Assembly: GCF_031085155.1 (NCBI RefSeq)
Contig: NZ_JAVHUL010000020.1
Location: 1-57,280, forward strand
Reading direction: 5' to 3'
DNA from: Mesonia profundi
GTDB lineage: Bacteria > Bacteroidota > Bacteroidia > Flavobacteriales > Flavobacteriaceae
DNA: 57,280 bases
Shown here: in pieces, positions 11,860 to 50,322 of the stretch
Layout of the letters: each line of letters opens with the position of its first letter
Numbering within the stretch: position 1 is the stretch's first letter
Position numbers and translations under genes: made by a program
Notes under the pieces: generated by a model
Seen by the model: only the letters and a program-made list of their open reading frames with translations
Told to the model about the DNA's origin: nothing
Databases searched by the model: none

Positions 11860-12813
11860 CTAAATTTGTGAGGAAGGGTCATCTATAAATTCATCTAAAT
11901 TACCGTTTTTATTACTGTTTTCGCTAGATTGCTTTTTACTAGTTTTCTTTTCCTCCAAGCTAACGTGTAAAATATTAGAAGATTTTAGATCTCCTTCGTT
12001 GGCAATAAACATATCTCCATTGGTATTGAAACTAAGTCCTTCAGGTTGCAAAAATATTTCGGGATCGAGTACCAAAAGCTCTTGTGCCTCCCAGTTTTTA
12101 TTCAGAATTAAGATTTTAGGAATAGCTCCATCGAGTAAATAGATATCTTTGGTTTTGGGATGAATAGCAATTTCTGAAGTTCTAAACAGCTTTTCATCCT
12201 TATCTTCCTCAAAATTATCAAAAATAGGATTATCATACGTTAGTTTATAAATAGGTTCTTTTCCAACTTGTTTCGTTTTTAAATCGAATGCATAAATAGA
12301 TTTAAAATTACCACGATGATCTGGGTTATCTTTGCAAGCCAATAACAATCTATTCTTGGTTTTATCCAAACATAAACCTTCTACATTGTGATCCTCTGTC
12401 AAAAAATTTTCATAAATGATCACTTCAAAATCTTCTTGTTTAAAATTTCTAATTTCAAAAAGTTTACCTGCACTATTCACAACATAAGCACTTTCACTAA
12501 CGATAGCAATGCCTTCGTAATCATCCTGTTCTCCAAAATTGATTTCTCTTTCTACCCCTTCATTTTCTAAATTGTAGAGAAAGATAATTCCCTCTTCATC
12601 TTGCACGCAAGCAATAATATTATCATTAACGTGAGAAATTCCCGAAACTTCTTCTAATGCACGCGGTAAAGGCCATTTCTTATTAACCACCACTTGTGAA
12701 GGATTGTCATAATCTAATACATACTTATCTTTAAAGTTAAAATACATAAAGGTGACAAACGCCATGATGATTAAAGTAATATAAAATGGCGGACTTTTAA
12801 AATACGAGGTCAT
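11860..12813 (-). CDS. SdiA-regulated domain protein, membrane-anchored (paralogue 1)
   Basis: A 317-residue protein with one N-terminal membrane helix (about residues 8-25) and a beta-propeller-like SdiA-regulated domain (PF06977 type) in the periplasm: EVSGISHVNDNIIACVQDEE, then a VEGLCLDKTKNRLLLACKD segment, then EIAIHPKTKDIYLLDG and PEGLSFNTNGDMFIANEGD. Its molecular role is unknown. The start overlaps the stop of the FUSC gene by four bases, so the pair is coupled. A close paralogue lies at 46521-47399 behind a two-component system. The C-terminal Lys/Ser/Asn tail is unlike that of the paralogue. Confidence 0.85.
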   Translation of the reverse strand: MTSYFKSPPFYITLIIMAFVTFMYFNFKDKYVLDYDNPSQVVVNKKWPLPRALEEVSGISHVNDNIIACVQDEEGIIFLYNLENEGVEREINFGEQDDYEGIAIVSESAYVVNSAGKLFEIRNFKQEDFEVIIYENFLTEDHNVEGLCLDKTKNRLLLACKDNPDHRGNFKSIYAFDLKTKQVGKEPIYKLTYDNPIFDNFEEDKDEKLFRTSEIAIHPKTKDIYLLDGAIPKILILNKNWEAQELLVLDPEIFLQPEGLSFNTNGDMFIANEGDLKSSNILHVSLEEKKTSKKQSSENSNKNGNLDEFIDDPSSQI

Positions 12814-46520: not shown

Positions 46521-47399
46521 ATGAAGTTTAAAAAAGTTGAAATATCCATTATTTTAGTAGTTCTCATCGTTATTTCGGGAATTACTTTAGCATTTAACTA
46601 CTCCCCCACACAAAACGAATCGCTAAGTATTCATGAGAATAAAAGTGAAAAAAGTTATCAAATCCTACAACAATGGGAGTTACCAAAAGACTTGGTAGAA
46701 ATTTCTGGCATCAGTTGGTTGGGAAATCAAAAAATAGCGTGTGTTCAAGATGAAGAAGGTATTATTTACATCTACAACCTCAAAACAGCTAAGATTGAAA
46801 AAACCATTGAGTTTGGGGATAAAGATGATTTTGAAGCGATAACCATTTTTAATGAGAACGCCTATGCCTTACGTAGCGATGGGACTATTTTTGAAGTTAA
46901 AAACTACAACAACTCAGATTTTAAAACTCGCAAGTATGATACGTTTATGGAAGGGAAAAACAACACCGAAAGTCTTGCGTTAGATGTTAAAAATAACCGA
47001 TTATTAATGGCGGCAAAGGACAGAGATCCTTTCAGTAAAAAAAGTAAAGGGATTTATGCATTTAATTTAGAGACTAAAAAGCTACAAAAAAAACCCGTGT
47101 ATCATTTAAATTTTGAGGATGAGATTTTTGATAAAGTAAGAAAAAAGAAAATTAAAAAAACATTTAGTCCTTCAGAAATAGCGGTGCATCCACAAACTCA
47201 AGAGATTTATGTGTTGGAAGGGAAAAAACCCAAGTTGCTTATTTTAAACCCTGATGGAAGTCCTAAGCGACTTATAGAGCTTGATAAAGAAGAATTTAGG
47301 CAACCCGAAGGCATGACTTTTGCTCCCAACGGAGATTTATACATCTCTAACGAAGGGAAAAAAGAAAACGCTACTATTTTAAAAGTGGCGCTGAAATAG
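46521..47399 (+). CDS. SdiA-regulated domain protein, membrane-anchored (paralogue 2)
   Basis: A 292-residue protein with one N-terminal membrane helix (about residues 7-26) and a beta-propeller-like SdiA-regulated domain. It shares the exact run IACVQDEEGII with the paralogue at 11860-12813 and similar ISGISW, EIAVHPQTQEIYVLEG and PEGMTFAPNGDLYISNEG segments. It lies 115 bases behind the two-component kinase gene on the same strand, possibly as a target or part of the same unit. A strong terminator follows. Function unknown. Confidence 0.85.
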   Translation: MKFKKVEISIILVVLIVISGITLAFNYSPTQNESLSIHENKSEKSYQILQQWELPKDLVEISGISWLGNQKIACVQDEEGIIYIYNLKTAKIEKTIEFGDKDDFEAITIFNENAYALRSDGTIFEVKNYNNSDFKTRKYDTFMEGKNNTESLALDVKNNRLLMAAKDRDPFSKKSKGIYAFNLETKKLQKKPVYHLNFEDEIFDKVRKKKIKKTFSPSEIAVHPQTQEIYVLEGKKPKLLILNPDGSPKRLIELDKEEFRQPEGMTFAPNGDLYISNEGKKENATILKVALK

Positions 47400-47464: not shown

Positions 47465-47944
47465 TTACAATTCTTTAAAGATAGAATGCATCAAACGTTT
47501 TTTATCGTTTAAGCTCTCTTCCAAAGAAATCATCGTTTCTGTTCTATACACCCCTTCAATATCATCCAATTCAAAGATAATTTGCTTAGCGTGCTCTGTG
47601 TCTTTTGCTCTAATTTTACAGAAAATGTTGAATTTCCCTGTAGTTACGTGTGCTACCGTAACAAATGGTATTTCATTTATACGTTCTAACACAAACTTGG
47701 TTTGCGATGTTTTTTGTAAAAACACCCCTACATAAGCGATAAAAGCGTATCCTAATTTTTTATAATCTATAGATAAGGAAGAACCTGTGATTATTCCCGC
47801 CTCTTCCATTTTCTTCACCCTAACGTGAACGGTACCAGCAGAAATTTGTAATTTTTTCGCTATATCGGTAAACGGAGTTCTCGTATTATCAATTAAGATA
47901 TCTAAAATTTGATGATCTACTTCATCTAATCTAAACTTTGCCAT
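47465..47944 (-). CDS. Lrp/AsnC family transcriptional regulator
   Basis: A 159-residue regulator. An N-terminal winged helix (DEVDHQILDILIDNTRTPFT, then KKLQISAGTVHVRVKKMEEA) is followed by an RAM/AsnC domain (VAHVTTGKFNIFCKIRAKD), which binds amino acids or other small ligands and forms the oligomer. Length is normal. It lies downstream of the M14 carboxypeptidase on the same strand, with its own -7 box in between. The target is unknown. Confidence 0.93.
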   Translation of the reverse strand: MAKFRLDEVDHQILDILIDNTRTPFTDIAKKLQISAGTVHVRVKKMEEAGIITGSSLSIDYKKLGYAFIAYVGVFLQKTSQTKFVLERINEIPFVTVAHVTTGKFNIFCKIRAKDTEHAKQIIFELDDIEGVYRTETMISLEESLNDKKRLMHSIFKEL

Positions 47945-48013: not shown

Positions 48014-49156
48014 TTAAGCTTTTGTTAAATTTACTAAGCATTCCTTACCATCTAAACTTATTTCTTGAATCTCAGCAATTTCACTCAGGTTTTCCTGTCT
48101 GTTTAATAAGAGTTTTTTACCCGAAACATCCATTTCTTGGTGGCCCATGTAGGCCTCCAAGTTTCCTAACGTCTCTAGAAACGGTACAAAAGAGATTTTA
48201 TTGTCAATTAACGTCTCTTTATATTGTATCGCTAGGTCTGCATCACGCTTTTCTGCATTCCTTAGGATAACATCATAAAAGCACTTTTTATTTTCCGGAA
48301 TCTTAAAATATTCTTGATAATCTGTATTTTTATAGGTTTTAGTCGACAATCCCCAAGTACTTTTTATCAAAGCAATTAAAATGAGCTTCCTTGTTTCTTC
48401 TCGGTTATAATCGCCTTTAAAGTGCCCTGCTTCAAATAAAACTGTCGGAATTCCAAGATTTTGCAAAGTATCTCCTACACAATTAAGGTTAAACCCATCA
48501 TCATACCTCCCCACTTGATTGGGAATGATCTTTTGCAGACTCATATTCATATAAACGATAAGCTGCATCGCTGTGATCCTACTCTCATCAACATCCCTAT
48601 CTTCGTTAAATGCTGGCGCTAAAAAAGAAACTGTTGCTGGTTTCGCTGGCTCTCCCACTCCAAATAAAGTACGTTGATCGTGTAAATTAAAGCAATAATC
48701 GGGTTGAAACTCGGTATAAAGCTTTTTAAAGACTTTACTCTCGGGTTGTGAACATCGTTGAGCATCTCTATTTAAATCGACGTCATTTGCATTCTTACGG
48801 GTATATTTTTTTGCCCCATCTGGATTTAACATCAAAATAAATCTAAATGAGATCTTGCTTAAGATTTCTTTCGCTTCCGCGGAATCACTTTGCAAGAAAC
48901 CTATAAAGTCAATCAATGCTTTTGTAGTGGTCGTTTCGTTTCCATGCATTTGAGACCACATCAAAACTTTGATTGATCCTTCTCCAAAATTTAATTGATG
49001 AATAGGTAGACCTAAAACAGATTCTCCCAATACGCTTTTTTGAGTGCTAGGAAAATCAGCTATAAATTTCTCTACCTCTTCTAGCGGAATATACCTTCCA
49101 AAAAAGGATTCATTTTTATACTGCGCTGCTAAGTCTAATAATCTTTCTTCTTCCAT
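48014..49156 (-). CDS. M14-family zinc carboxypeptidase
   Basis: A 380-residue metallopeptidase. Zinc ligands His71 and Glu74 are in MWSQMHGNETTTTKALIDF, the third ligand His is in FNLHDQRTLFG, and the catalytic Glu is in LFEAGHFKGDYNREE. The Asn-Arg pair needed for the substrate carboxylate appears in DVDLNRDAQRCS. No signal peptide is visible, so it is probably cytoplasmic, which is unusual for M14 enzymes. Its promoter is overlapped by two of the Xre-type operators, and the -7 box ends seven bases before the ATG, implying a nearly leaderless transcript. It contains TTCCGCGGAA at 48875-48884. Confidence 0.9.
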   Translation of the reverse strand: MEEERLLDLAAQYKNESFFGRYIPLEEVEKFIADFPSTQKSVLGESVLGLPIHQLNFGEGSIKVLMWSQMHGNETTTTKALIDFIGFLQSDSAEAKEILSKISFRFILMLNPDGAKKYTRKNANDVDLNRDAQRCSQPESKVFKKLYTEFQPDYCFNLHDQRTLFGVGEPAKPATVSFLAPAFNEDRDVDESRITAMQLIVYMNMSLQKIIPNQVGRYDDGFNLNCVGDTLQNLGIPTVLFEAGHFKGDYNREETRKLILIALIKSTWGLSTKTYKNTDYQEYFKIPENKKCFYDVILRNAEKRDADLAIQYKETLIDNKISFVPFLETLGNLEAYMGHQEMDVSGKKLLLNRQENLSEIAEIQEISLDGKECLVNLTKA

Positions 49157-49157
49157 A

Positions 49158-49173
49158 GTTTACAAAAGTAAAC
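49158..49173. promoter_or_regulatory. Operator A, covering the M14 gene -7 box
   Basis: GTTTACAAAAGTAAAC, with palindromic arms GTTTAC/GTAAAC. The minus-strand -7 box TACTTTTG (49170-49163) is inside it, and the M14 ATG begins two bases beyond its edge. A repressor here would block transcription directly. Confidence 0.65.
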
Positions 49174-49181
49174 ATTCCTTT

Positions 49182-49197
49182 TTTTACAATTGTAAAC
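49182..49197. promoter_or_regulatory. Operator B, at the M14 gene -33 position
   Basis: TTTTACAATTGTAAAC; 14 central bases form a perfect palindrome. It contains a minus-strand TTG (49189-49187) located 16 bases from the -7 box, a plausible -33 triplet. Confidence 0.6.
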
Positions 49198-49215
49198 AAC
49201 AAAAATACGGTGACA

Positions 49216-49231
49216 CGTTACAATTGTAAAC
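49216..49231. promoter_or_regulatory. Operator C
   Basis: CGTTACAATTGTAAAC, one arm slightly degenerate. It lies 18 bases from operator B in the intergenic centre. Confidence 0.55.
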
Positions 49232-49370
49232 CAATTAGCTTTTAGACCTACCTAGGTGTGTGGAAAAACTCCTATTCTAAGTATTTTAGCAATTTAACTA
49301 CTGCACTTCAATAACTTAAATACGTTTTAGTAAAGTGTTAGTTAAAGTAAATAATTACTTATAAACAGGG

Positions 49371-49407
49371 TTTTGTTATTCTGAATTAATAGTTTACATT
49401 TGTAAAA
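49371..49407 (+). promoter_or_regulatory. Promoter of the Xre gene with operator D
   Basis: TTTG (49372-49375), 19 bases, then TACATTTG (49395-49402) is a good promoter. Operator D (49392-49407, GTTTACATTTGTAAAA) overlaps the whole -7 box. This predicts autoregulation. Confidence 0.65.
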
Positions 49408-49426
49408 CACAAAAACCTTTAATTTA

Positions 49427-49442
49427 GTTTACAATGGTAAAC
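49427..49442. promoter_or_regulatory. Operator E, overlapping the Xre start codon
   Basis: GTTTACAATGGTAAAC with perfect 6-bp arms; its central ATG (49434-49436) is the start codon of the Xre gene. A further half-site GTTTAC is at 49451-49456. Confidence 0.6.
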
Positions 49443-49820
49443 AGTCAAGAGTTTACAAATCGACTCGCCAAGATTATGGAGTATTACGAGCTAAGTGCAA
49501 CCTCCTTTGCCGATAAAATTCAGGTAGGTCGCTCCTCTATTTCTCATATTATTTCGGGAAGAAATAAGCCTAGTTTAGATTTTGTAATGAAAGTGGTTCA
49601 GACTTTTCCCGAGGTAGAACTGTATTGGTTTTTAAATGGCAAGGGAAGTTTCCCTCCTACTCCATCCTCTGAAATTTCTTCCGTAAAGGAAAAAACGACG
49701 GTTTCTCCTGTTTCAGAAGAAAAAGAGATTCCGAAGAAAGATCACAAAAACACTTCCAAAGCAATTGAAAAGGTGATTGTCTTTTACACCGATGGTACCT
49801 TTGATGCGTATAATTCCTAA
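49434..49820 (+). CDS. Xre-family helix-turn-helix regulator
   Basis: A 128-residue DNA-binding protein. Residues 5-62 are an Xre-type HTH: RLAKIMEYYELSATSFADKI, then VGRSSISHIISGRNKPSLDF, and ELYWFLNGKG. A Ser/Thr/Lys/Glu-rich linker follows, then a short conserved-looking C-terminus KVIVFYTDGTFDAY of unknown role. It is divergent from the M14 carboxypeptidase. The intergenic region holds five copies of one palindrome, one over each gene's -7 box and one over this start codon, so it is the likely binding protein and probably represses itself and the peptidase. The ligand is unknown. Confidence 0.85.
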   Translation: MVNSQEFTNRLAKIMEYYELSATSFADKIQVGRSSISHIISGRNKPSLDFVMKVVQTFPEVELYWFLNGKGSFPPTPSSEISSVKEKTTVSPVSEEKEIPKKDHKNTSKAIEKVIVFYTDGTFDAYNS

Positions 49821-49950: not shown

Positions 49951-50322
49951 ATGAGAAATCTTATTCTGATTGCTTTTAGTTTATTGTTATGTAGTTGTTA
50001 CGCCCCCGAGAGAAACTGTAAAGACTTTAAAACGGGTACCTTTGAGTTTGAATCGTACTTAAACGGAGAACTGGAGAAAACTCGTTTTGTGAGAAATGAT
50101 TCGATAGAAGTAGATTATTATAAAAACAACGTAGATTCTTCCTCGGTTCGATGGATTAATGATTGTGAATACATTCTCACCAACCTTAATCCTAAGAATA
50201 TGGCCGAAGAAAAGCCTTTACATATGAAAATTCTTACCACCGAAAAAAATAGTTACACCTTTGAATTCTCTGTGGTAGGAGGAGATAAAAAACAAAAAGG
50301 GGTTGCTAAGCGAGTGGAGTAA
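49951..50322 (+). CDS. Small lipoprotein (family often mislabelled 'DNA topoisomerase IV')
   Basis: A 123-residue secreted protein. MRNLILIAFSLLLCSC provides a lipobox with the acylated Cys at 14 or 16. The mature part contains ERNCKDFKTGTFEFES, an SVRWINDCEYILTNLNPKN segment and PLHMKILTTEKNSYTFEF, which look like a small beta-sandwich. I recall close relatives in Flavobacteria databases carrying the label 'DNA topoisomerase IV', but nothing in this protein resembles a topoisomerase; the label probably arose from its position near parC/parE. Function unknown. Confidence 0.75.
   Translation: MRNLILIAFSLLLCSCYAPERNCKDFKTGTFEFESYLNGELEKTRFVRNDSIEVDYYKNNVDSSSVRWINDCEYILTNLNPKNMAEEKPLHMKILTTEKNSYTFEFSVVGGDKKQKGVAKRVE

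Follow-up and report, generated by a model that had tools for sequence, protein, structure and literature searches.

The locus described here lies in Mesonia profundi, within a stretch of 57,280 bp that was analysed as a whole and is called the window below. It consists of two diverging genes and five copies of a 16-bp palindrome. The gene order is an Lrp/AsnC-type regulator (47465..47944, minus strand), an M14 zinc carboxypeptidase-like protein (48014..49156, minus strand), the five sites, and xre (49434..49820, plus strand), followed by a small lipoprotein-like gene, MscL and ParC- and ParE-like genes, the names ParC, ParE and lipoprotein being assigned by reading. Xre, a 128-aa protein of the HTH_3/XRE type, is the proposed repressor, and the M14 peptidase (380 aa, with no signal peptide evident by reading) is its proposed target; Lrp, located behind M14, is strongly conserved. 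The ATG at 49434 is the earliest possible start of xre because an in-frame stop lies at 49425-49427. The closest named Xre locus is that of Mesonia algae, with 73% identity.

A preliminary description of this DNA had placed the palindromes at 49158, 49182, 49216, 49392 and 49427, and a check of the sequence found all five there. The peptidase-proximal operator 1 (GTTTACAAAAGTAAAC, 49158..49173) includes the peptidase -7 box TACTTTTG (49170-49163, minus strand). Operator 2 (TTTTACAATTGTAAAC, 49182..49197) is 24 bp from operator 1 and contains a -33-like TTG (49189-49187, minus strand), while operator 3 (CGTTACAATTGTAAAC, 49216..49231) is positioned 34 bp from operator 2. On the other side, operator 4 (GTTTACATTTGTAAAA, 49392..49407) holds the Xre -7 box TACATTTG (49395-49402, in the Xre direction), and operator 5 (GTTTACAATGGTAAAC, 49427..49442) has the Xre start codon (49434-49436) at its centre, with a right arm that codes for Met-Val-Asn. 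The five palindromes are not identical; the arms GTTTAC and GTAAAC are both intact only in those at 49158 and 49427, and exact GTTTACNNNNGTAAAC is found at just two places of the 3.08-Mb genome, operators 1 and 5. Allowing up to three mismatches, GTTTACAWTTGTAAAC has 10 matches in the window, which are the five sites on both strands, against a mean of 2.85 and a maximum of 9 in 100 shuffles; no further palindrome within three mismatches of the consensus occurs in the 57 kb.

Elsewhere in the genome these sites are not enriched as a global Xre regulon would have them, GTTTACNNNNGTAAAC with up to two mismatches occurring at 216 places versus 230 in a reversed control. Exact TTTACNNNNGTAAA is present at 19 places versus 12 in the control, and four of the 19 belong to the Xre-M14 locus. 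Eleven of the other 15 places were read (L001-L006, L011-L015): eight are inside open frames and three (L006, L011, L013) are intergenic. One of these regions carries a lone palindrome TTTACAATCGTAAA (L011:1501-1514) about 240 bp upstream of a gene that by reading is superoxide-dismutase-like, which may be due to chance. Exact site pairs with 8-24 bp between them are found in 18 of 149 family genomes (22 places), and in all 18 they are located where Xre and M14 are, compared with one genome in the reversed control. Because such pairs are confined to the Xre-M14 locus and there is no genome-wide excess, Xre looks like a regulator of one locus.

The Xre protein matches HTH_3 (PF01381) with 31.9 bits at a cut-off of 23, and a match at E <= 0.01 is obtained for 32 of 32 homologues. 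Its predicted model consists of a five-helix HTH, modelled with high confidence within residues 4-68, a disordered linker of low confidence (79-107) and a C-terminal beta-hairpin with strands at 113-117 and 123-127 (block means 88 and 86). A fold search covering residues 1-74 returned SinR, P2 C and the C proteins, including C.AhdI, C.BclI and C.Esp1396I, all tied. SinR has a helical oligomerisation part and an antagonist, SinI. Xre can be likened to the SinR-type and the phage CI/C2-type HTH_3 repressors, to which it adds the linker and the hairpin; since the model has a predicted hairpin at 113-127 and no helical oligomerisation part, it would not be a SinR, and nothing like SinI or that part was seen in the model. 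The C proteins of restriction-modification systems are small HTH autoregulators whose palindromes, several in number, lie next to the controlled gene. Xre is likewise a small HTH protein, but its neighbour is a peptidase, and by reading no restriction-modification genes were recognised among the open reading frames of the window. The score for the HigA antitoxin family (TIGR02607) was 21, below the cut-off of 47.7, and scans of defence and phage families gave only HTH-level matches.

The peptidase belongs to PF00246 (47.8 bits, cut-off 21.6), and H71, E74, N129, R130, H159 and E242 are invariant in 22 M14 sequences; H71, E74 and H159 (HxxE...H) are presumably the zinc ligands and E242 the catalytic Glu. 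MpaA was the sole solved structure matched at E <= 0.01 (E 0.0022, residues 26-131). The M14 motifs are common to the window protein and this murein tripeptide amidase, but the protein scores only 33.9 against the cut-off of 157 of the MpaA equivalog (NF007897). Defence and phage families gave only a weak match, to a phage zinc carboxypeptidase. Among the other genes of the window, the small lipoprotein-like gene downstream of xre (49951-50322) had no family match above cut-off; it is present in 119 of 137 family loci, and still near M14 in seven of nine loci that have no Xre. The predicted proteins at 11860-12813 and 46521-47399, which are far apart in the window, have a common stretch, VSGIS...ACVQDEEGII.YNL, and are apparent relatives.

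An Xre match is present in 186 of 199 genomes of the Flavobacteriaceae, mostly once per genome. We sampled 150 Xre loci by protein match, never by sites: 70 came from the first searches and 80 were picked, 60 of them nearly in score order (a few were skipped) and 20 from lower ranks. Removal of three duplicates and of ten loci without an ATG detected by script left 137, which are related loci, and hence the counts are not independent. Every one of the 137 carries one or more sites near the Xre start (up to one mismatch to TTTACNNNNGTAAA), with a mean of 3.56 sites per locus versus 0.10 in dinucleotide shuffles. The ten removed loci also have a site each at this threshold; by reading, the start codon within the same palindrome is GTG in two of them and TTG in two others, and four (Flagellimonas, Allomuricauda) retain mainly the peptidase-side site. 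M14 diverges from Xre in 127 of the 137 loci, and with up to one mismatch a site is found on the Xre side in 118 of these, on the M14 side in 121 and on both in 112, leaving one side without a site in 15. The ten others comprise six with Lrp near Xre and no M14 found, two whose sequence ends early (L060, L159), one with no M14 within 3.2 kb of Xre (L083) and one with an M14-like match 1.6 kb off (L131). L040, where the stretch examined has no M14, retains the start-codon site together with three sites on the M14 side. The comparison of related loci that had been proposed thus finds aligned palindromes and neighbouring Xre and M14 genes elsewhere, and the idea of a divergent switch survived it.

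The position of the sites relative to the promoters is also constant. The promoter consensus of Bacteroidetes is TTTG/TAnnTTTG, according to the accessible parts of two studies (PMC6847099, PMC9723704). As the preliminary description had it, the -7 boxes of both diverging genes fall inside palindromes, with TAnnTTTG in the site at 49392 for Xre and in that at 49158 for the peptidase, and the -33-like triplet of the peptidase falls inside the one at 49182. In the homologous loci, TAnnTTTG is directed toward Xre in 58 of 58 sites at Xre -41 (operator 4) and in the reverse direction in none, and it is directed toward M14 in 49 of 54 M14-proximal sites belonging to a 24-bp pair, with 0 of 54 in the opposite direction. 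In the next M14-side site, 43 of 54 homologues have a TTG positioned 16 nt ahead of the M14 -7 box; xre has a weaker -33 element, its TTG standing at a gap of 19-20 nt in 21 of 58. A reader of the palindrome would leave the inner bases freer than a promoter does, so the fixed orientation of TAnnTTTG indicates that the operators overlie promoters. This supports the proposal that regulation would act at the initiation of both genes. As far as the sites are concerned, the common operators over both promoters are those of an autorepressor with a divergent target. Neighbouring sites are mostly spaced by 24 bp (70 pairs) or 34-35 bp (95 pairs, 31 at 34 and 64 at 35 bp), and these repeated spacings suggest cooperative binding of dimers.

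The operator on the Xre start codon has the identical register in 107 of 137 deduplicated loci, as claimed for the window. The protein begins with Met-(Val/Ile)-Asn in 121 of 130 loci, and the codons behind these residues are constrained too. At codon 3, AAC accounts for 124 of 127 Asn versus 247 of 779 further along the same genes, and at codon 2 Val is GTA in 68 of 72 (versus 277 of 823) and Ile is ATA in 50 of 51 (versus 279 of 1145); Asn codons 4-12 of xre have 24 AAC and 31 AAT, a mild lean at most. We attribute both the Met-Val/Ile-Asn start and the preference for AAC, GTA and ATA to the operator that overlies the start codon and forces the protein to begin in this way. Bacteroidetes favour A at position -3, as seen in the same literature (PMC6847099/PMC9723704), which is compatible with the start-codon site without accounting for its other bases. 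A palindrome around a start codon could also be read as an RNA hairpin governing xre translation, and a stem of six pairs with AUG in the loop is indeed predicted; this fold, though, beats shuffled sequences by a mild margin only (z -1.72, 11 of 200 equally good), and a role in RNA leaves unexplained why the same palindrome covers the -7 boxes and recurs in the peptidase promoter. We therefore regard the hairpin as extremely improbable and take the start-codon palindrome as a DNA operator. The conserved Met-Val/Ile-Asn start could be misread as a matter of protein function, while the DNA site accounts for its conservation.

Since Lrp is encoded behind M14, it may be asked which gene is the target. 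Xre might bind the sites with the Lrp/AsnC regulator as the main controlled product, so that the locus would switch a global regulator. Among M14-divergent loci with more than 2.2 kb of upstream sequence, 98 of 98 have Lrp behind M14, the median gap being 75 nt, and this close linkage speaks for such a reading. On the other hand, a TAnnTTTG box precedes Lrp in 70 of 83 loci, and because Lrp is likely to have its own promoter, control by Xre is doubtful. Xre-M14 pairs also exist in other families of the order, where none of 18 loci showed an Lrp gene within the 6 kb examined, and the five M14-less family loci in which Lrp faces Xre (L071, L082, L084, L175, L181) keep one or two sites only. Lrp as the main target is thus unlikely in our judgement, and the peptidase is retained as the proposed target.

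Another question is which protein binds the palindromes. According to the accessible part of one report, the CopR sites before copB and yahC of Lactococcus lactis contain GTTTACAATTGTAAAC (PMC7253601), a 16-mer letter-identical to the palindrome consensus. A BlaI/MecI/CopY-type regulator (Penicillinase_R, PF03965) might thus be the binder instead of Xre; the operator of CopR/CopY and BlaI/MecI can be identical to the palindrome, but these proteins are of a family other than that of Xre. Two PF03965 proteins are encoded in the genome of the window, and matches were obtained in 81 of 100 genomes of the family. Nevertheless, 19 of the 100 are without PF03965, and 15 of the 16 of these with Xre carry a site near it (12 of 13 in one set, together with L118, L146 and L173; L248 has a two-mismatch site only), although several of the PF03965-less genomes are incomplete or have a single one-mismatch site. 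G036, G043 and G084, which are 99% complete, have three or more sites. Conversely, among the 12 genomes that have M14 and no Xre, nine contain PF03965 (G033, G050, G108, G150, G152, G184, G243, G369, G417), yet six of the nine are siteless (G033, G050, G108, G150, G152, G369). In addition, the TACANNTGTA core needed by the PF03965 family is absent from all 107 start-codon sites and occurs in 24 of 54 M14-proximal ones. The sites were thus not found to follow a PF03965 regulator, as they would in a BlaI/MecI/CopY system; their presence tracks Xre, which disfavours a binder of that type and makes it, in our view, extremely unlikely.

The loci that lost Xre point in the same direction. No Xre match at E <= 0.001 was obtained in 13 of 199 genomes, nine of which keep M14 with Lrp behind; with three more that have no match at E <= 1e-10, drawn from the matchless genomes listed (67 others exist besides), these make up a set of 12 Xre-less loci with M14. 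In nine of the 12 no site is found upstream of M14 (up to 544 bp). Eight of the first nine are without a site and L089 has one, with about 0.1 expected in each; among the siteless ones, the contig of L091 ends 294 bp upstream, so that Xre may merely be absent from the assembly, and L093 has a stop inside the M14 frame. L222 has zero sites in 544 bp. L223 has three sites and a 20-residue remnant of the Xre C-terminus (L223:1249-1308, E 7e-4), and L224 has one site and a weak remnant of the Xre tail (L224:2772-2819, E 0.012). By reading, the TAnnTTTG box persists before M14 in L089, L222 and L224, with a palindrome arm lost. Sites persist in three of these 12 loci, which speaks against Xre as the binder; the combination of remnants and sites reads as recent loss of Xre followed by operator decay. 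Sites being mostly absent where Xre is absent, the earlier suggestion that Xre is the binding protein gains support from this comparative evidence.

Eighteen loci in other families of the same order (L202-L219) were read as well. Seven of them (L202-L206, L210, L217) have a divergent M14 gene no more than 800 bp away; in L212-L214 and L216 M14 is 1.6 kb off, and in the remaining seven it was not found. A site is located within 500 bp of Xre in 15 of 18 (all except L208, L215 and L216), and a start codon at the operator centre in 0 of 18, which, for so small a set, suggests that the start-codon operator arose within the Flavobacteriaceae. In L213 and L216 a metallophosphatase-like gene, PhoD-like by reading, is placed between Xre and M14 (L213:1563-2885, L216:3387-4694), and in L213 three near-palindromes (1603, 1723, 1812) are inside the start of its frame. 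In other orders a site is found within 500 bp of Xre in six of nine loci (L228, L230-L233, L235) and none in L229, L234 and L236; by reading, an MntR/DtxR-like gene is near the Xre orthologue and palindromes in L228 and L230, being directly divergent in L230. From these few outside-family loci, autoregulation by Xre looks older than its link to M14.

The same nine orthologues from other orders bear on the C-terminus of Xre (VFYTDGTFDAY), which the preliminary description took for a sensor of a peptide or amino-acid signal linked to the peptidase. By eye this tail is kept in nine of nine, and no M14 was found near them within the 2-3.5 kb examined. Because the tail, a predicted beta-hairpin, is kept in orthologues with no M14 found in that range, the sensor reading is weak and finds no support here; a role of the hairpin in dimer contact or stability is our guess. 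A closed loop, in which action of the peptidase on the hairpin, or of a peptide set free by the enzyme, lifts both repressions, is considered very unlikely. If it were true, the start-codon operator would hold Xre at a low and steady level and fix its N-terminus throughout the family.

Taken together, Xre is very probably a local autorepressor that also represses the M14 peptidase by blocking RNA polymerase, forming a self-limiting switch. Xre, probably as a dimer, would bind the 16-bp palindrome, and neighbouring dimers would bind together. In the peptidase promoter the -7 element falls within operator 1 and the -33 element within operator 2; operator 4 includes the -7 box of xre, and operator 5 overlies the first translated bases of xre. 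Bound Xre would then keep RNA polymerase off both promoters and exert negative feedback on xre. We infer DNA binding, the sign of regulation, dimerisation and cooperativity from the sequences, and Xre could also be an activator or need a partner.

It is common for a repressor to silence both its own gene and a divergent neighbour. The claim that no system of this form is described holds apparently for this instance, and not for the kind as such. No earlier description of the Xre-M14 switch was found in the open-access literature, subscription journals being outside its scope, and the accessible part of PMC9769523 concerns Pseudomonas XRE work unrelated to it. The arrangement is real and deeply conserved, and the switch that it very probably forms is of a well-known kind, yet apparently undescribed as an instance. 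Operator 5 is a clean example of an operator written into coding sequence. The analysis provides a predicted repressor that is nearly family-wide (186 of 199 genomes), together with its predicted operator and target, which is relevant for the Flavobacteriaceae, where few characterised specific regulators were found.
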